DNA of 34,436 nt, taken from IMG/VR virus record IMGVR_UViG_3300045131_000726, positions 1 through 34,436 of that record. One strand, 5' to 3'. Shown one piece after another: positions 7,660 to 15,559 of the stretch. The position numbers and the translations under genes are program-made. Source of the stretch: a virus. The first letter of the stretch is position 1. Every line of letters starts with the position of its first letter. The notes under the pieces were generated by a model. It was not told the DNA's origin, made no database searches, and worked only from the letters and a program-made list of their open reading frames with translations.

Positions 7660-9051
7660 ATGAACAGCGTCATACTCGGCATCGCACAGTCGGACCCCTC
7701 GAGGCAGTACGGCGCGCGGAAGGCATTCGAGCTCACGTCATCTACGCTGACCCGCACCCGCGCCGCATTCGGCAAGCTCTACACGCCCACGGTCGGTGCC
7801 ACGGTCGGCGCGAACGACTTCGAGCTCCTCGAGCCGTGGTCCAAGATGCGTCTCTGCAACCTCTCCGACGCCGGAGCCGTCAACGCCTATCAGGGCGATG
7901 TCGGGTTCATCCTGGACGGCACCAACGGGCAAGTCATGGTCGAGATCCCGAGGTTCTGGTACCGCGTCGAGAAGCAGACCGACGCATGGGAGTGGGTGGT
8001 ATCGCCCATCGCACAGCCCGGATTCGCCGTCCATCCCGCGTTCGTCACCAACGGCATTGAGCGGGCGAAGATTTACGTCTCCGCATATCTCGGTGCGGAG
8101 GTGTCGTCCAAACTCGTGAGCGTAACGGGCGTGCTCCCGCAGTACGACAAGACCCGCGCACAGTTCCGCACGCTCGGTCGGGCGCGGGGAACCGGATGGG
8201 GCATCATGGACTTCACGACCTACTCCGCGCTCCAGTTGCTCCTTCTCGTCGCAACCGCCAACTTCGACGCACAGACGGTCGTAGGACGAGGCATCTGCGA
8301 TATGGTCTACGACGCGACCTGCGTCGCCACGGTCGCGGAGAACGCAGTCAACCGCATAATCGTCGCCAATGCCAAAGCCGCGGGGTTCCTCGCGGGGTAC
8401 ATGATGGGCATCGGCACGGCGTTGGGCGGACATCAGATTGCCAAGTATCGGCAGGTCACGAGCGTCGATGTGTATGATGCGTCCAACAAAGCAATCTCAT
8501 TCGACGGCGCGGCGGTCAACGTCGCGCTGAACAACATCGCCTACGTCATGCCGTCGAAGACCGGTGGCGCGGACGCGCTCGGCATCCACACCGGACGCGC
8601 GGCGGGGACGGATGGAAAGACTGAGGTCAACTTCTTCGGGATGCAGGGACTGTGGGGCAACTTCTGGCAGTTCATCGACGGCTGGAACATGGACACCTCA
8701 TACTACGCATGGCTCAACGACAACCCCGCGACCTACGAGGACGCGAAGTTCGCCGCGCCGTACACCCGCTACGAGTCCGTTATGCCGTCGGCGGCGGACG
8801 GATACGTTCGGAGGTTCGGGTTCGACGCGCTTCGTCCGTGGGCGATGCTGGCGGGCGAGGTCGGCGGCGCGTCGTCCGGTCCCGTGGGCGACTACTACTA
8901 TCGGAGCGCGACCCCGAGCGAGCGCGTCCTACTGGTCGGCGGCTCCTGGGTCAACGGTTCGTTTGTCGGGCCGTGGGCCTGGCTCGTGTGCTACGCCTCG
9001 TCGGCTGCGTCCTGGGACTTTGGGGCGCGCCTCCTTTACAAACCGGGATAG
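7660..9051 (+). CDS. DGR variable protein (C-type lectin / FGE-like fold) - diversified tail-tip adhesin
   Basis: A 463-residue protein, start supported by GAGGAGGTCCGC before ATG 7660. The C-terminal third has sulfatase-modifying (FGE)/C-type lectin features: GMQGLWGNFWQFIDGWN near residues 328-344, then RFGFDALRPWAM, and a terminal GGSW...GPWAW...WDFGAR segment. Mtd-like DGR variable proteins share this layout. The last ~37 residues are written by the variable repeat at 8937-9031. Positions set by adenines in the template are 429, 431, 432, 435, 436, 440, 442, 444, 445, 449, 451, 453 and 454, while Trp and Gly residues between them are fixed. The first ~300 residues are unlike known catalytic FGEs and probably anchor the protein to the tail. 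It likely binds a host receptor, and its context after baseplate genes supports this. Confidence 0.9.
   Translation: MNSVILGIAQSDPSRQYGARKAFELTSSTLTRTRAAFGKLYTPTVGATVGANDFELLEPWSKMRLCNLSDAGAVNAYQGDVGFILDGTNGQVMVEIPRFWYRVEKQTDAWEWVVSPIAQPGFAVHPAFVTNGIERAKIYVSAYLGAEVSSKLVSVTGVLPQYDKTRAQFRTLGRARGTGWGIMDFTTYSALQLLLLVATANFDAQTVVGRGICDMVYDATCVATVAENAVNRIIVANAKAAGFLAGYMMGIGTALGGHQIAKYRQVTSVDVYDASNKAISFDGAAVNVALNNIAYVMPSKTGGADALGIHTGRAAGTDGKTEVNFFGMQGLWGNFWQFIDGWNMDTSYYAWLNDNPATYEDAKFAAPYTRYESVMPSAADGYVRRFGFDALRPWAMLAGEVGGASSGPVGDYYYRSATPSERVLLVGGSWVNGSFVGPWAWLVCYASSAASWDFGARLLYKPG
8937..9031 (+). repeat. DGR variable repeat (VR)
   Basis: A 95-bp segment at the 3' end of the target gene, aligned without gaps to the template repeat at 9136-9230 (offset 199). 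It differs at 20 positions, all of which are A in the template. No C, G or T of the template is changed. It ends in the 10-bp GC-only block GGGGCGCGCC (9022-9031), identical in the template and followed by unrelated sequence. That block sits where the initiation-of-mutagenic-homing (IMH) element lies in known DGRs. Confidence 0.95.
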
Positions 9052-9060
9052 AGCGGGGGA

Positions 9061-9081
9061 CCGGGGGCAGCCAGCCCCCGG
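9061..9081 (+). promoter_or_regulatory. GC-rich hairpin/cruciform downstream of VR (DGR target-recognition element)
   Basis: A perfect inverted repeat, CCGGGGGC - AGCCA - GCCCCCGG, lies 29 bp after the end of VR and 9 bp after the target stop codon. The Bordetella phage DGR needs a short GC-rich hairpin or cruciform just downstream of its IMH for efficient retrohoming, and this element has the matching position and stem length (8 bp). Its loop is 5 nt rather than the usual 4. No T-run follows, which argues against a simple terminator. Confidence 0.7.
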
Positions 9082-9135
9082 AACATCCACCGTACAAGGG
9101 ATTCGCTGCGCACGTCCTGTGGCTTTGGTTTCTGC

Positions 9136-9230
9136 CGGCGGCAACTGGAACAACGGTTCGAATGACGGGCCGTGGAACTGGAACGTGAACAACGCCTCGT
9201 CGAATGCGAACTGGAACTATGGGGCGCGCC
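9136..9230 (+). repeat. DGR template repeat (TR)
   Basis: The non-coding 95-bp donor copy between the target gene and the reverse transcriptase, 91 bp before the RT start. It contains 24 adenines: 22 in eleven AAC/AAT triplets (in the frame that aligns with the target), plus one in GAC and one in TAT. NNC and NNT codons can never be stop codons, so mutation cannot truncate the target protein. Fixed TGG, GGG, CCG, TCG and GCG triplets keep the structural residues. The segment is presumably transcribed with the RT mRNA as the template RNA; no separate promoter was identified. Confidence 0.95.
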
Positions 9231-9321
9231 AAATTATCTGTATACCTAATCATCCATCATCGCGCAGCGTCTTCCTGACCCCACGGTCGAAATAGAGCCG
9301 ACCCGGCAGGGGCTGGTAGCA

Positions 9322-10416
9322 ATGTCGAACGCCCTTGAGGCAGATAAGGACCGCATGAAACGAGTCGGATACGTATACGACACCATCTGCAGCAGAGACA
9401 ACATCCGAGCCGCCATCCTCCACGCAAGCCGCCGCAAGCGCGAACACCGCAACGTCGCGGCCGTCCTCGAGGACATCGACGGAGCCGTCGAGCGCATCCA
9501 CCGGATGCTGACGGACAAGACCTACACGCCATCCCCCTACAAGGTCAAGGAGATCCGCGACGGCGCCACGGGCAAGCTCCGTACCATCTGCTGCCCGAGA
9601 TTCTATCCCGACCAGATCGTCCACTGGGCGGCGATCACGCCGATCGAGGGCGTGCTGTCCCGCGGAGCCTACGCACACTCGCACGGCGGGATCCCCGGCA
9701 AGGGCACACACTCAGCGCTCAAGACCTGCCGCAAGTGGATCGCGAGGGATCGCAAGAACACCAAATATGTCCTCAAGATGGACATCCGCAAGTTCTACCA
9801 GAGCGTCGACAACGAGGTCCTGAAGGCGCAGCTCCGGCGGGTCATCAAGGACCGCGATGCGCTCTGGCTGCTGGATACGATCGTCGACACAGCCAAGGGG
9901 CTCCCGATCGGGAACTACACGTCGGTGTGGCTGTCCGACTTCTACCTGCAGGGGCTCGACCGGCACATCAAGCAGCAGCTCGGCGCGGCCCACTACATCC
10001 GCTACGTCGACGACATGGTCGTGTTCGGTCGCAACAAGCGCAAGCTGCAAAAGCTCCGCAAGGAGATCGAGGACTATTTCGGCACTCGGCTTCGGCTGAC
10101 ACTCAAGGCCAACTGGCAGGTGTCGCCGCTCGCGTCCCGCGACCTGGATTTCCTCGGGTTCCGCATCAACCGCGACCGGGTGATCCTACGCAAGAACGTC
10201 GCGCTCCGGATGCGGAGGCGTGCGAAGCGGATCGGGAAGAAGCGGGTGCTCGGCCCGAGGGACGCCGCCGCCATGGCCAGCTATCGCGGCATGCTGGTCC
10301 ACTGTGACAGCTACAACTTCCGGTGCCTGCACATCGAACCATACATCGACTACCGAGAGGTGAGGAGGGTCATATCATGGCACGCACGGAGAGCACTGTC
10401 CGCCCCGGCGCAGTGA
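9322..10416 (+). CDS. DGR reverse transcriptase
   Basis: A 364-residue retroelement-type reverse transcriptase without an obvious endonuclease or maturase domain, the size usual for DGR RTs. Visible motifs: LRTICCPRFYPDQIVHWA (about 86-103), catalytic Asp154 in LKMDIRKFYQ, the motif-4 region LPIGNYTSV (194-202), catalytic YVDD at 228-231, and LDFLGFRI near 275-282. DGR RTs typically carry SQ after the IGxxx of motif 4, whereas here the residue after Ser is Val (S201-V202). It should copy the TR RNA into cDNA with errors opposite adenine. Start ATG 9322 has CAGGGGCTGG upstream; ATG 9352, at codon 11, is an alternative. The 3' end overlaps the next gene by 40 bp. Confidence 0.95.
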   Translation: MSNALEADKDRMKRVGYVYDTICSRDNIRAAILHASRRKREHRNVAAVLEDIDGAVERIHRMLTDKTYTPSPYKVKEIRDGATGKLRTICCPRFYPDQIVHWAAITPIEGVLSRGAYAHSHGGIPGKGTHSALKTCRKWIARDRKNTKYVLKMDIRKFYQSVDNEVLKAQLRRVIKDRDALWLLDTIVDTAKGLPIGNYTSVWLSDFYLQGLDRHIKQQLGAAHYIRYVDDMVVFGRNKRKLQKLRKEIEDYFGTRLRLTLKANWQVSPLASRDLDFLGFRINRDRVILRKNVALRMRRRAKRIGKKRVLGPRDAAAMASYRGMLVHCDSYNFRCLHIEPYIDYREVRRVISWHARRALSAPAQ

Positions 10417-10709
10417 CGGTGGAGCGGGACGCATCGGGGCATATCCATGTCGTCCTGGCGGAGAATATCGTCCAGCGGGACAACGACGGGACCCCCATCT
10501 ACGAATACGACCAGACGCGCATCGTCACCGACGGGGCCAAATACCGCAACCGAACGCTTACCGCGTGGAAGCCGCTGGCGACTCCGGAGAAGTACGAGGG
10601 CTGCATCATGACCGCCAACGGACTGATGCCCATCGTGGCTGCGGAGAGTACCGAGCGCGTCGAGCCGGAGACCAAACCGGAGGCGTTGGACGGGCTTGCT
10701 GTGAAATGA
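10377..10709 (+). CDS. Small protein after the RT, function unknown
   Basis: A 110-residue soluble protein starting at ATG 10377 with GTGAGGAGGGTCATATC in front, inside the end of the RT gene. It looks beta-rich in the first 85 residues (VTVERDASGHIHVVLAENIV; IYEYDQTRIVTDGAKYRNRT) and has an acidic tail. It does not look like the helical Avd accessory protein of classical DGRs. It belongs to the operon that leads into the lysis genes and may be a small tail or lysis-region protein. Its stop overlaps the next start (ATGA). Confidence 0.65.
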   Translation: MARTESTVRPGAVTVERDASGHIHVVLAENIVQRDNDGTPIYEYDQTRIVTDGAKYRNRTLTAWKPLATPEKYEGCIMTANGLMPIVAAESTERVEPETKPEALDGLAVK

Positions 10710-10938: not shown

Positions 10939-11253
10939 ATGAACGAACTGATGTCCTGGACAACTCTCGGAACCCTGGCCGGAGCGACTGCGGCCGTGCT
11001 GCTGATCGTGCAGTACCTCAAGCCACTGCTGCCCAAGCTAGACACACGCCTGCTTGCCCTGATTGTCGCCGTAGTCATCCTCGAGGGGGCAACGGCCATT
11101 ACGGGTGGTGCGGCACAGGACTATGTTGTCGCCGTGCTGAACGCCGTCCTCGTGGCCTCCAGCGCGATGGGCGCGTACCAGGTGACGTTCGCGGCCAGTG
11201 ACGCGGCCAGCAAAGCCAATAGCGATGACGGCGGGGCGGAGGCCGGGGGATGA
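10939..11253 (+). CDS. Putative holin
   Basis: A 104-residue membrane protein with two hydrophobic segments (about 8-29 and 38-58), a third weakly hydrophobic one around 63-85, and a charged, Ser/Asp/Gly-rich C-terminus. AAGGAGGAACCC precedes ATG 10939. It directly precedes, and overlaps by 4 bp, an NlpC/P60-like endolysin gene. That position and topology make it the best holin candidate: a small membrane protein that makes holes to release or trigger the endolysin. The call is based on topology and neighbourhood, because holins lack conserved motifs. Confidence 0.7.
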   Translation: MNELMSWTTLGTLAGATAAVLLIVQYLKPLLPKLDTRLLALIVAVVILEGATAITGGAAQDYVVAVLNAVLVASSAMGAYQVTFAASDAASKANSDDGGAEAGG

Positions 11254-11936
11254 AAGCGGTCGACTTCGTCAAGGCCGTGCAGGCACAGGTGGGGAACGGC
11301 TACTGGTATGGGACATATGTGCCCATGACCGGGACGGAGACCCTACTGGCCAGCAAAGCACTGCAGTACCCGAAGCAGTATACGGCGGCATACATCCTGC
11401 GCTCACGGAAGTGGATGGGCAAGCGCGTGATGGACTGCGTCGGGCTTATCAAGGGCATCGTCTGGCAGGCGGACTTCGCCGGAAAGTACCAGGCGGCGTC
11501 TGACCTGTCGGCCAACGGGATGTACGGCAAGTGCATCGTCAAGGGTCCGATAGGAACCATGCCCGACAACCCGGGGCTCATCGTCTGGAAGGACGGGCAT
11601 GTCGGGGTCTATGTCGGGAACGGCGTGGTCGTGGAGAGCAGGGGCGTCGACTTCGGTGTCGTCCGGACGAACCTCAAGGACCGGCCCTGGACGAACTGGG
11701 GCGTGTGCCACCTGATTGACTATGTCGTGGATCCGATGGAAGTCCGCGCGATCGCGGCAGAGACCAAGGCCGAATCGCTGACGATCGACCTCGCATCCTG
11801 TCATGCGCTCTCGAAGGCGCAGGCGGATGAGCTCGTGAAGCAGCGCATCCTCCTCGAGGAGCTGAGGGCCAAGGAATCCGAGCGGCGTCACGCGCTGCAG
11901 GTTCTCGCGGCTGAGGCAGACGAACCCGTTCTATAG
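11250..11936 (+). CDS. Endolysin, NlpC/P60-like (CHAP/amidase-type) peptidoglycan hydrolase
   Basis: A 228-residue protein with NlpC/P60 active-site spacing: Cys63 in VMDCVGLIKG and His117 in DGHVGVYVG, followed by a beta strand with VVVESRGVDFGVV. The N-terminal ~165 residues are the catalytic domain. The C-terminal ~60 residues are helical and charged (ALSKAQADELVKQRILLEELRAK) and may bind the cell wall or oligomerise. No signal peptide is seen, so export would depend on the holin encoded upstream. It would cut peptide bonds of the peptidoglycan stem. It is the last gene of the late operon and is followed within 40 bp by a strong terminator. Confidence 0.85.
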   Translation: MKAVDFVKAVQAQVGNGYWYGTYVPMTGTETLLASKALQYPKQYTAAYILRSRKWMGKRVMDCVGLIKGIVWQADFAGKYQAASDLSANGMYGKCIVKGPIGTMPDNPGLIVWKDGHVGVYVGNGVVVESRGVDFGVVRTNLKDRPWTNWGVCHLIDYVVDPMEVRAIAAETKAESLTIDLASCHALSKAQADELVKQRILLEELRAKESERRHALQVLAAEADEPVL

Positions 11937-12222: not shown

Positions 12223-12256
12223 AGCGGGTTTCCGGGTTATCCGGGAACCCGCTTTT
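12223..12256 (+). terminator. Hairpin terminator beside attP
   Basis: The stem AGCGGGTT-T-CCGG / CCGG-G-AACCCGCT with loop GTTAT is followed by TTTT on the + strand. It starts 10 bp after the tRNA CCA. In the integrated state it would stop transcription coming through the restored tRNA-Pro. The integrase stop codon (12237-12239, minus strand) lies inside the hairpin, which may also protect the 3' end of that mRNA. Confidence 0.7.
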
Positions 12257-13469
12257 CTGCGTCTGGAGTGGTTTCTGGAGTGGTTCTCTGAAAATCCTTC
12301 TCCGGCACGATGCCCAGAGTATAGGCCGTGCTGTCCACGACATTCGCTGCGCGCTCGAGGTCGCCGTCCAGGATGTGGCGGTAGAGGTCCAGCGTCTGGG
12401 TGCTCGATGTGTGGCCAAGAACCGATTGCAGGGACTTGAGGTCCATGCCTCTCCCGCTGATCGACACGAAAGTATGCCGCAGCTCGTGGATGCTGATCCG
12501 GACGTTGGCCTTCTCGGCGAGCTTGCGGATGTTGTAGTAGTAGGTGTTCGGCTGGACGGGATCCCCGGTGTAGGCCGGGAAGACATAGGCCGTCTCGCCT
12601 TTCTTCGGCTTGTCGTCCTTGACGTCGGGGTCGGGAGTCCATGGCCGCAAACCGTCGACGATAAGCATGTCCCGCTGAGCGTCCAGAATCGCCTGCACCG
12701 CTTTGCCTATACGCATGGTCCGCAGACCTGCCCGAGACTTGGGCGGGCCCTCCTCGCCGTCGCGCGAGCGCGTGCGGGATACCTTGACCCATGAGTGGCC
12801 CTTGTCGTCCTTGATGATGTCATCCCAGCGCAGCGCGAGTAGTTCGCCGCGCCGGAGGCCGGTGAGCAGGATGAAGCGGACGGAGTTCTGCCAGCGGGAA
12901 TGCTCCATCGACTCGACGAGCGCAGGGACCTCTGCAGGCGCCAGCGCGCGGCGGGGCGTCGCCACGGTCTCCGGGATCTTGATCTTCGTGCAGGGATTCT
13001 TGTCGACGATCTCCGACTCCATCAGCCACGCGAAGAGCCCGTGCATCGCGATGCGCGCGCCCTTCATCGTCTTCGTCGAGAGGCCCTTCGCCGTCTTCTT
13101 CGTGCTGCCGTGGGTCGCCATGCCCGCGATCACGCTCTGGACATGCTTCGCGCGAACGTCCTCGACCGCCATCGTGCCGATCGCCGGCAGGATGTACCGG
13201 GCGAAGAAGTAGGCGTACTGCTCCCGCGTCGACTGCCGCCAGATACCGTCGGCGTGCATCGCGACCCACTCGTCGTACGCGCGCTGGACGGTGTACTCGG
13301 TCGGGGCCGGGGCGGCCTTCGCGGCCCTGATCCAGGCGAGCGCCTCGGTCTTCGTGCGGAAGGACTTCGTCCTCGGCTTCGGATCCGCGGCGAGCTGCAG
13401 GCGCGCGCGCCATTTCTTTTTGTCGCGGTCGAGCCATACGGTCCCGGCTCCATCTTCACGCTTCGACAT
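12237..13469 (-). CDS. int: Tyrosine recombinase integrase
   Basis: A 410-residue site-specific recombinase that inserts and excises the phage genome. The N-terminus (1-55) is an AP2-like/arm-binding domain (GTVWLDRDKKKWRARL, TKTEALAWI), 60-165 is the SAM-like core-binding domain, and about 175-395 is catalytic. The catalytic residues are visible: Arg206 (LLTGLRRGELLALRW), His328-x-x-Arg331 (IHELRHTF), His353 (LGHTSSTQT) and nucleophile Tyr363 (DLYRH). The start is preceded by GGAGGTGC overlapping the end of the repressor gene, so both are read from the repressor promoter. The stop lies next to attP, the usual int-attP order. The C-terminal tail is encoded by arm-type repeat DNA. Confidence 0.95.
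   Translation of the reverse strand: MSKREDGAGTVWLDRDKKKWRARLQLAADPKPRTKSFRTKTEALAWIRAAKAAPAPTEYTVQRAYDEWVAMHADGIWRQSTREQYAYFFARYILPAIGTMAVEDVRAKHVQSVIAGMATHGSTKKTAKGLSTKTMKGARIAMHGLFAWLMESEIVDKNPCTKIKIPETVATPRRALAPAEVPALVESMEHSRWQNSVRFILLTGLRRGELLALRWDDIIKDDKGHSWVKVSRTRSRDGEEGPPKSRAGLRTMRIGKAVQAILDAQRDMLIVDGLRPWTPDPDVKDDKPKKGETAYVFPAYTGDPVQPNTYYYNIRKLAEKANVRISIHELRHTFVSISGRGMDLKSLQSVLGHTSSTQTLDLYRHILDGDLERAANVVDSTAYTLGIVPEKDFQRTTPETTPDAEKRVPG
12261..12286 (+). repeat. Direct repeat, right copy (candidate integrase arm-type sites)
   Basis: An exact copy of 12010-12035, 251 bp away. It lies within the 3' end of the integrase gene, where it encodes the low-complexity end TTPETTPD on the minus strand. 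Two tandem TCTGGAGTGGTT units are present, as in the left copy. Confidence 0.65.
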
Positions 13470-13470
13470 A

Positions 13471-14133
13471 TCAGTGCACCTCCGCGACGACCAGCATCAC
13501 CTTCCCGATGATGCGGACGATGTTCGCCTCTTCCGGCGTGAAGACCAACGAGGAATACTTCGGATTATCCGGCCGCAGTTCGATGATGCCGTTCGCGTGA
13601 CGGTAGAACCGTTTCACGGTGGCCTCCTCTCCGTCGACGACCACGACGGCTACTTCGCCATTTTCTACGTCGTCCTGCTGCCGGACGAGGACCAGGGAAC
13701 CGTCGGGGATCCCGGCTTCCGACATCGAGTCGCCATTCACGCGCAGCGCGAAGTCGACGTCGTTGACGGAATGAATCGGCATATACCCTTCGATGTTATG
13801 GTCCGCATAGAGAGGCGCGCCGGCCGCGATCGTTCCCAGGATGGGGACCGTCGTATGCTTTATGGCCTCTGTCGGAGACGGCCGCGGATCGTCGCTGATT
13901 CCCGTGAGCCACATCGTGGAGACGCCGAGCGTCCTCGCCAAGTCCTGAATCTGCTGGAATCGGTATCCCTTCGTCGTTCCATCGAGCCATCGCGAGACCG
14001 TGCTGCGCTGAACGTCCATCTCGCTCGCAAGACGCGCAGCATTCCATCCGCACCGCTCAAGGGCCAGCGCAAGGCGCTTCCCTATGATGTTCTGCTTGTC
14101 AGTGATGTCCGGTTTGTCCGGATTCCTGCCCAT
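13471..14133 (-). CDS. Prophage repressor, HTH + S24/LexA-like autoprotease
   Basis: A 220-residue CI-type repressor. Residues about 15-80 are a Cro/CI helix-turn-helix domain (RLASEMDVQRSTVSRWLDG). Residues about 95-215 are an S24 peptidase domain with the Ala104-Gly105 cleavage site (TIAAGAP), nucleophile Ser136 (GDSMSEAGIPDGS) and Lys174 (ATVKRFYR). All parts needed for RecA-stimulated self-cleavage are present, so SOS induction of the prophage is expected. It is transcribed leftward from the intergenic region together with int, and GGAGGTGAATT precedes the start. It presumably binds the TGTTGC-N6-GCAACA sites around the cro-like gene. Confidence 0.95.
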   Translation of the reverse strand: MGRNPDKPDITDKQNIIGKRLALALERCGWNAARLASEMDVQRSTVSRWLDGTTKGYRFQQIQDLARTLGVSTMWLTGISDDPRPSPTEAIKHTTVPILGTIAAGAPLYADHNIEGYMPIHSVNDVDFALRVNGDSMSEAGIPDGSLVLVRQQDDVENGEVAVVVVDGEEATVKRFYRHANGIIELRPDNPKYSSLVFTPEEANIVRIIGKVMLVVAEVH

Positions 14134-14166
14134 AATTCACCTCCGAGACAGTATTTCCCTACATCC

Positions 14167-14195
14167 TGTATACAACAAATGCGCACGTGACGCAA
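14167..14195 (-). promoter_or_regulatory. Leftward lysogeny promoter (repressor-int)
   Basis: On the minus strand, -35 TTGCGT (14190-14195), a 17-bp spacer and -10 TATACA (14167-14172) lie 34 bp before the repressor start. Single half-sites GCAACA (14192-14197) and ACAACA (14172-14177) overlap the -35 and -10, so the repressor or Cro-like protein could control it. Confidence 0.6.
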
Positions 14196-14236
14196 CATGG
14201 AGAGCAAAATTATATCCAAAGTGTTGTTTCTGATGC

Positions 14237-14265
14237 TTGACGCGAGAACGTTTGTTTGCTATCCT
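14237..14265 (+). promoter_or_regulatory. Rightward lytic promoter
   Basis: TTGACG (14237-14242), a 17-bp spacer and TATCCT (14260-14265) fit a sigma-70/SigA promoter and lie 44 bp before the cro-like gene. An 18-bp operator palindrome begins 11 bp after the -10, covering the likely start of transcription, so bound repressor would block it. Confidence 0.75.
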
Positions 14266-14275
14266 CGGTCTAGGA

Positions 14276-14293
14276 TGTTGCATGGAAGCAACA
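14276..14293 (+). promoter_or_regulatory. Operator palindrome, copy 1
   Basis: TGTTGC-ATGGAA-GCAACA, a perfect 6-bp inverted repeat with a 6-bp centre, sits between the rightward -10 and the cro-like gene. The identical half-sites and spacing recur at 14542-14559. It is the best candidate for the binding site of the CI-like and/or Cro-like protein. Confidence 0.75.
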
Positions 14294-14309
14294 CGGAAGG
14301 GGTGAGGCA

Positions 14310-14528
14310 ATGATCGGACACAAGAATTACCTGCTCAAATCGGCAATGGCCGGCAAGGATCTCACGATCTCGAAACTGGCGCAGATGATCGGCACGAATC
14401 GAGTCACGCTGGGGAAGAAGATCTCCGGCAAGATCGCATTCGACACGGAGGACATCGGCAAGATCCGCGAGGTCATGGACTTGAGCCATGAGGATGCGGC
14501 GAGGATATTTCTCGGCTGCGGGCTCTAA
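14310..14528 (+). CDS. Cro-like HTH regulator
   Basis: A 72-residue protein, first gene of the rightward operon and divergent from the repressor. It is almost entirely an HTH domain: LLKSAMAGKDLTISKLAQMIGTNRVTLGKKISGKIAFDTEDI shows helix 2 (ISKLAQMIG) and recognition helix (NRVTLGKKISG), as in Cro/CI-family proteins. GGAAGGGGTGAGG precedes ATG 14310. Operators lie on both sides of it, which suggests that it competes with the repressor and limits its own operon. The role is inferred from fold and position. Confidence 0.8.
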   Translation: MIGHKNYLLKSAMAGKDLTISKLAQMIGTNRVTLGKKISGKIAFDTEDIGKIREVMDLSHEDAARIFLGCGL

Positions 14529-14541
14529 TTTTATGCCCGAG

Positions 14542-14559
14542 TGTTGCGCGTACGCAACA
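14542..14559 (+). promoter_or_regulatory. Operator palindrome, copy 2
   Basis: TGTTGC-GCGTAC-GCAACA, with the same half-sites and N6 spacing as copy 1. It lies in the 43-bp gap between the cro-like gene and the next gene, immediately before the ribosome-binding site AAAGGAGGAAG. It may act as a downstream operator (roadblock or looping partner). Confidence 0.7.
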
Positions 14560-14571
14560 AAGGAGGAAGAG

Positions 14572-14742
14572 ATGCCGGAGGAAAGAGGAAGCGCCGGGAA
14601 AGAGGTCAAGGTCACCATCGGCCTCAATGAGCTCGGAGATCTGCTGACTACCCTAGGCGCGAAAGCGGTTGATATGAAGCCGCGCGAATGGGAAGGGTAC
14701 ATGAAGCTCGAGCGGCAGTTCTCGCAGCTTGTCGGGGAATAA
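14572..14742 (+). CDS. Small early protein, function unknown
   Basis: A 56-residue acidic-to-neutral protein with a strong RBS (AAAGGAGGAAGAG) before ATG 14572. The sequence VKVTIGLNELGDLLTTLGAKAVDMKP suggests one beta strand and a helix; the end is helical (EGYMKLERQFSQLVGE). It has no recognised domain. It lies in the immediate-early position and overlaps no other gene. A small imperfect hairpin (CCGCCCTG / CAGGACGG, 14748-14769) follows before the antirepressor gene. Confidence 0.65.
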   Translation: MPEERGSAGKEVKVTIGLNELGDLLTTLGAKAVDMKPREWEGYMKLERQFSQLVGE

Positions 14743-14797
14743 GAAAACCGCCCTGCGCCAACAGGACGGCTCGGCCGCGAGGCCAGAGAGGAGACTC

Positions 14798-15559
14798 ATG
14801 GACAAGGACAATTCTATCACCATCTTCCAGAACCCACAATTCGGCGAGGTCCATACGGTCCTCATCGACAACGAACCGTGGTTCGTACTGTCAGACCTTT
14901 GCCGAGCGGTCGGGCTGACGAGATCCGCATCGGCCGTGTCTGAGCGCCTCGACGATGGGGTACGCCAGATGTACCCCATCCCTGACGCCCTCGGCCGGAC
15001 CCAGCTCACGACCATCGTCTCCGAGGCCGGCCTGTACGAGGTCGTGATCCGGAGCGACAAGCCGGAGGCCGCAGCCTTCCGCCGATGGATCACCTCCGAG
15101 GTCCTGCCTTCGATCCGCAAGCACGGGGCCTACATGACACCGGCGACCGTCGAGCGTCTGATGGCGGACCCGGACTTCCTGATCGGGATCCTCAACGGGC
15201 TCAAGGCCGAGCAGGCCAAGCGCATACAGGCCGAGACGAAGGTCGCCGAGATGGAGCCGAAGGCCGACTTCTACGACGCCATCGGAAGCTCCGCGGACGG
15301 CATCTCGCTGTCCGACATGGCGAAGCTGCTCGCCTGCAAAGGCCTCGGACCGAAGAACCTCTTCGTCTTCCTGCGCGACAAGCGCGTCCTCATGTCCGAC
15401 AACCGGCCCTACCAGGAATATATCGATCGCGGGCTACTGTCCGTCCGTGAGCGCGTCTGGTACGACCCGGACACGGGCGCGCCGCACGTCAGCGTCCAGC
15501 CGCTGATCCTCGGCAAGGGGCAGGACTGGATCCGGAAGCTAGTGGAGGCCCGGGCATGA
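14798..15559 (+). CDS. Phage antirepressor (BRO-N + KilAC domains)
   Basis: A 253-residue protein. Residues about 1-115 form a BRO-N domain (VHTVLIDNEPWFVLSDLCRAVG; RTQLTTIVSEAGLYEVVIRSDKPEAAAFRRWITSEVLPSIRKHG). Residues about 165-250 form a KilAC DNA-binding domain (DFYDAIGSSADGISLSDMAKLL; LFVFLRDKRVLM; PYQEYIDRGLL). Such antirepressors bind or displace the CI-type repressor and help start lytic growth. I chose ATG 14798 because GAGAGGAGACTC lies directly before it; a longer reading from 14729 would overlap the previous gene. Its stop overlaps the next start (ATGA at 15556). Confidence 0.9.
   Translation: MDKDNSITIFQNPQFGEVHTVLIDNEPWFVLSDLCRAVGLTRSASAVSERLDDGVRQMYPIPDALGRTQLTTIVSEAGLYEVVIRSDKPEAAAFRRWITSEVLPSIRKHGAYMTPATVERLMADPDFLIGILNGLKAEQAKRIQAETKVAEMEPKADFYDAIGSSADGISLSDMAKLLACKGLGPKNLFVFLRDKRVLMSDNRPYQEYIDRGLLSVRERVWYDPDTGAPHVSVQPLILGKGQDWIRKLVEARA

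Follow-up and report, generated by a model that had tools for sequence, protein, structure and literature searches.

The 34,436-nucleotide viral record IMGVR_UViG_3300045131_000726 from IMG/VR, here called the window and analysed over its whole length, almost certainly carries a complete diversity-generating retroelement (DGR) in the tail region of a phage, acting by the mechanism proposed below. DGRs are known cassettes that rewrite the tip of a tail protein and can yield vast numbers of variants. In the window, the target gene, variable repeat (VR), hairpin, template repeat (TR) and reverse transcriptase (RT) follow one another on one strand, and VR and TR differ only at adenines of TR, which bears out the complete DGR claimed by an earlier, sequence-only reading. 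The design of the cassette is ordinary, as tail-tip DGRs are familiar from other phages. Two features are worth following up: an exception in the SQ motif of the RT, and a probable role for RT-18, an RNA family whose role has been unexplained.

Anatomy of the cassette

What the window shows directly is its anatomy, the confinement of changes to adenines, the folds assigned to target and RT, and the match to RT-18. The features, with the evidence for each in brackets, are:

7660..9051, + strand: target gene, a tail protein with a C-type-lectin/FGE-like C-terminus (PHROG, AlphaFold, PDB match)
8937..9031, may extend to 9036, + strand: VR (repeat alignment)
9061..9081, + strand: hairpin/cruciform 3' of VR, with an 8-bp GC-rich stem and the 5-nt loop AGCCA (z -2.6)
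9136..9230, may extend to 9235, + strand: TR (repeat alignment, codon analysis)
9277..9351, + strand: RT-18 RNA (RF03021) in the TR-RT spacer, proposed DGR spacer/priming RNA (Rfam model)
9355..10416, + strand: DGR reverse transcriptase, with the start corrected to its probable position (PF00078, PHROG, structure match, tree)
9925..9927, + strand: GTG (Val) codon at the SQ-motif glutamine, IGNYTSV (54 aligned RTs)
10003-10014, + strand: YVDD active site (RT sequence)

The 95-bp direct repeat was confirmed, with 79% identity between its copies. Base-by-base comparison gives 20 mismatches in 95 positions, all on the 24 adenines of TR and zero elsewhere; read from TR to VR these are 10 A>T, 5 A>C and 5 A>G. 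Twenty randomly placed mismatches would all land on 24 of 95 positions with p = 6e-17, and such confinement to TR adenines is a defining trait of DGRs. Allowing A-mismatches to continue extends the repeat to 9036/9235 and brings the count of changed adenines to 23 of 27, and its 3' boundary may therefore lie about 5 nt further on in both copies. VR is the only further copy of TR within the record. The TR adenines fall in 11 AAY codons, one GAC and one TAT, a set of 13 varying codons that permits ~1.4e14 protein variants and from which a stop codon is unreachable.

The target product is 463 residues long and matches a PHROG tail-protein family (1.8e-81). Its AlphaFold model, built from 21 input sequences (mean pLDDT 91.4), finds its best solved match in TaqVP (5vf4), the DGR variable protein of Thermus aquaticus (E 5e-13), followed by weaker matches to Mtd of phage BPP-1 and then to PvdO and EgtB. 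The likeness to TaqVP includes the variable, lectin-like end, although identity is ~15% and the genome context is different. The model and this match support the FGE/C-type-lectin-like C-terminus that had been proposed, and VR lies in frame within the coding region at the 3' end of this lectin-fold target, as is usual in DGRs. The genes upstream encode a tape-measure fragment, Dit and a prophage endopeptidase tail protein, which places the target within the tail-tip region. By analogy with BPP-1, the target may be an adhesin or receptor-binding tip whose variation would retune host range.

The hairpin downstream of VR, another usual component of a DGR, was confirmed with its 8-bp stem. In BPP-1, such a hairpin is needed for efficient homing and has a 4-nt GRNA loop (PMC3240598); the 5-nt loop in the window is unlike that consensus. 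Similar stems occur in 23 of 54 relatives as against 5.6% of shuffled sequences, and 5-nt loops recur within the clade.

The proposed mechanism takes priming, retrohoming and receptor binding from BPP-1. Here, TR and the RT-18 spacer would presumably be transcribed as a single RNA, and the RT would bind the spacer, begin cDNA in the 3' end of TR and misincorporate opposite template adenines. This cDNA, with its errors, would next be swapped in for VR at the target gene's 3' end, a step favoured by the hairpin downstream and by the GC-rich terminus of VR. As a result, the lectin-like end of the tail protein, most likely the receptor-binding tip, would vary at 13 codons.

The reverse transcriptase and its SQ motif

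The RT, with its YVDD active site, was confirmed on the same strand as the other elements. It matches PF00078 (7e-17) and a PHROG RT (3e-106), and its best solved relative by sequence is the DGR RT of BPP-1 (94 bits, where the top group II intron RT scores 63). By fold, the BPP-1 enzyme again ranks first (8ub7, TM 0.83/0.91, rmsd 2.1, with 26% identity in the structural alignment), and group II intron, DRT and retron RTs rank behind it. A tree of 60 RTs puts the window enzyme in a 25-member clade (support 99/100) that includes the RTs of LBR48 (Lactobacillus phage), Arawn (Butyrivibrio phage), Faecalibacterium and other Bacillota or viral RTs. In the same tree the BPP-1 RT joins the intron outgroup, and as the program flags this as a possible long-branch artefact, the tree leaves the deep placement undecided. 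With BPP-1 as best match and clade RTs that have TR/VR pairs beside them, the RT near the repeats is of the DGR type.

The start of the gene had been placed at 9322, which is probably wrong. The ATG at 9355 is likelier to be the true start because it is preceded by AAGGA, because the matches of most relatives begin there, and because residues 1-11 of the longer form are modelled with low confidence. The ATG at 9322 lies inside a conserved RNA stretch, AATGTCGAACG, which is shared with LBR48; the related locus L016 has ATGTCGAACG.

The motif (I/V/L)GxxxSQ in RT domain 4 was described in the DiGReF survey as a DGR hallmark and as the proposed basis of adenine-specific errors (PMC3521204). The same work found it in 90% of DGRs; 15 of 155 elements had motif changes (SP, SH, NQ, PA, AQ, VQ) with adenine exchange still present (PMC3521204). 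The window RT departs from this motif, which is typical of DGRs rather than universal: it reads IGNYTSV, in which the glycine and serine are kept and the glutamine is replaced by valine. Among 54 aligned RTs, this position is Q in 50, P in three and V in the window RT only, and a degenerate search for the SV motif returned no other close RT. An apparent TSGW variant at L078 was dropped, as its RT is frameshifted there.

The three proline enzymes (L023, L025 and L074) have TSPW in place of TSQW, and their TR/VR pairs differ at adenines only. The RTs of L023 and L025 are 98.9% identical over the aligned stretch and their TRs are identical. The two VRs depart from this shared TR at adenines only, each differently, which shows an SP enzyme to be active with specificity for adenines. 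The record left by the SV enzyme consists of past changes in one VR. Natural RTs that are without the SQ glutamine and keep an adenine-only record argue against this residue setting adenine specificity.

The relatives show the same pattern on a larger scale. TR/VR pairs of the same kind lie near the RT in most of 84 loci, which were collected with an RT query, and in 54 distinct relatives 802 of 826 TR/VR mismatches (97%) are at TR adenines. Variation of VR beside a constant TR, which the sequence-only reading had predicted for copies of this phage, was found in near-identical relatives (L010/L011/L069, L023/L025 and L053/L054), while the window phage is represented by one copy. Within some other near-identical sets, the VRs are identical (L015-L017, L036/L075). 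In addition, one TR is accompanied by two or three VRs at L028, L032-L034, L036-L039, L065 and L076, such that one template feeds several targets in some related DGRs. The closest parallels with named phages are LBR48, Arawn and the Faecalibacterium prophage at L071, which share the RT clade and RT-18 before the RT (slightly below the cut-off in Arawn). Arawn and L071 also have the order target-VR-TR-RT. All three are distinct phages whose RTs are ~40-45% identical to that of the window, and the motif at L071 is read as SQ rather than SV.

A second copy of the window phage that carries VR was sought in three ways. An exact search of IMG/VR with the first 60 TR bases returned zero matches, megablast against phages with the first 25 kb as query gave no match, and the target search found one close fragment (L089, 86% amino-acid identity) that stops short of VR.

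These data bear on whether the enzyme is a DGR RT at all. Were it a group II intron, retron or defence RT, the repeats beside it would be coincidental, a reading that draws on sub-threshold matches to models of those classes and on the flagged junction of BPP-1 with the intron outgroup. However, the NCBIfam scores for group II intron, retron and defence classes are far under their cut-offs, and a DGR RT comes first by both sequence and fold. The adenine-only repeats just 5' of the RT, in the window and in most relatives, already contradict coincidence, and this origin is therefore extremely improbable.

It is more plausible, albeit still unlikely, that the DGR was functional until recently and is now disabled, with the Q-to-V change a loss of function and VR a frozen record. 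Valine is unique among the aligned RTs, one survey put SQ variants down to inactivation or to errors of sequencing (PMC4244168), and VR turnover was seen in no second copy; the single copy of the window phage records past changes, and activity today is presumed. Against this, the RT frame is open and the catalytic YVDD is intact, and non-adenine changes between VR and TR have not accumulated. Moreover, where the enzyme is of the SP type in this clade, VR has turned over beside an unchanged TR, and DiGReF reported adenine exchange alongside other motif variants (PMC3521204).

RT-18 as a candidate spacer RNA

The Rfam RT-18 model matches the window at 9277-9351 with 49.5 bits, above its gathering threshold of 41.3, which makes this stretch a member of RF03021. 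Of 30 related loci that were scanned, 20 have RT-18 above the cut-off and two (L021 and L022) have RT-17 in the TR-RT position; in L023, L074 and Arawn, RT-18 is slightly below the cut-off. Where TR was mapped, RT-18 starts 29-73 nt past it. Loci with RT-18 between TR and RT are L003-L006, L008-L010, L013, L014, L016, L019, L020, L029, L070-L073, L077, L083, L087 and L091-L097. The record of BPP-1 has Rfam Phage_DGR (RF03022) at the equivalent position.

To avoid selection by RT, the RNA model alone was run over ~690 Bacillota genomes. Seven RT-18 loci were found, one of which is the known L071 locus and one of which (L097) is below the cut-off. All seven lie between an RT and a TR/VR pair whose changes are all, or mostly, at adenines; at L096, the RT match spans only the later two thirds of the enzyme. 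As every RNA-only locus sits between a TR/VR pair and an RT, RT-18 is best read as the DGR spacer RNA of this clade, and it is probably the equivalent of the BPP-1 spacer. The latter recruits RT-Avd and primes cDNA (PMC12875486), and by analogy RT-18 may prime cDNA as well. Over the stretch from TR to RT as a whole, folding energy does not beat that of shuffled sequences; the case for a spacer RNA therefore comes from the Rfam model and not from energy. The link between RT-18 and DGRs may already have been stated in the paper that defined RT-18. Because it takes this position at every RNA-only locus, RT-18 now has a function that can be tested, and it could serve to find DGRs by RNA alone.

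The comparison with BPP-1 (mtd-VR-avd-TR-brt) shows a common plan with several substitutions. Both cassettes have a VR that ends a lectin-fold tail protein, a hairpin after VR, adenine-only changes, a structured RNA between TR and RT, and homologous RTs. They differ in the spacer RNA (Phage_DGR in BPP-1, RT-18 in the window), the RT motif (SQ versus SV), the hairpin loop (4 versus 5 nt) and the accessory gene, as BPP-1 has avd between VR and TR and the window has none there. BPP-1 requires Avd (PMC12875486), which is encoded by most, but not all, DGRs (PMC10053308). More generally, accessory proteins such as Avd or HRDC are common in DGRs but not universal. With the Avd of BPP-1 as query, phmmer gave no hit in the window or its relatives, and the interval between VR and TR is not long enough to code for Avd. 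PF05635 and HRDC had no match in the window; PF05635 was judged uninformative as a test for Avd, since it misses even the record of BPP-1 itself, and an Avd gene may thus have been missed.

A wider proposal can be made, for which the chances are evenly balanced. Here, RT-18 would be the priming or scaffold RNA of a broad clade of Bacillota-phage DGRs that may work without Avd. Within this clade, the SQ glutamine would have been lost at least twice (to V in the window and to P in L023/L025/L074), with adenine specificity kept.

Phage, neighbouring genes and host

The window encodes an integrase, an antirepressor, Erf, an exonuclease, a terminase, a portal and a head protease. By these genes, this uncultivated phage is a tailed phage and probably temperate. 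The cassette had been placed between baseplate and lysis genes. The downstream part of this placement is only weakly supported: ORF 10939-11253 is holin-like (PHROG holin, E 3e-4), and ORF 11250-11936 is a possible cell-wall hydrolase that resembles a few phage lysins (31-37% identity). A small gene at 10377-10709 (+ strand) overlaps the 3' end of the RT and has no family match; distant relatives of it occupy the same place in L010-L012, L014 and L069. The integrase gene (12237-13469, minus strand) lies just after the possible lysis region and the antirepressor gene is at 14729-15559.

A GC-rich Gram-positive host, as suggested by the sequence-only reading, is not established. The kin of the phage are mostly phages and prophages of Bacillota, and the best terminase matches, with up to 48% identity, are to phages of Bacillota. 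The GC content of the genome is ~64%; it is 56% at 14001-15000, by the antirepressor gene, and 60-67% in the rest of the genome.
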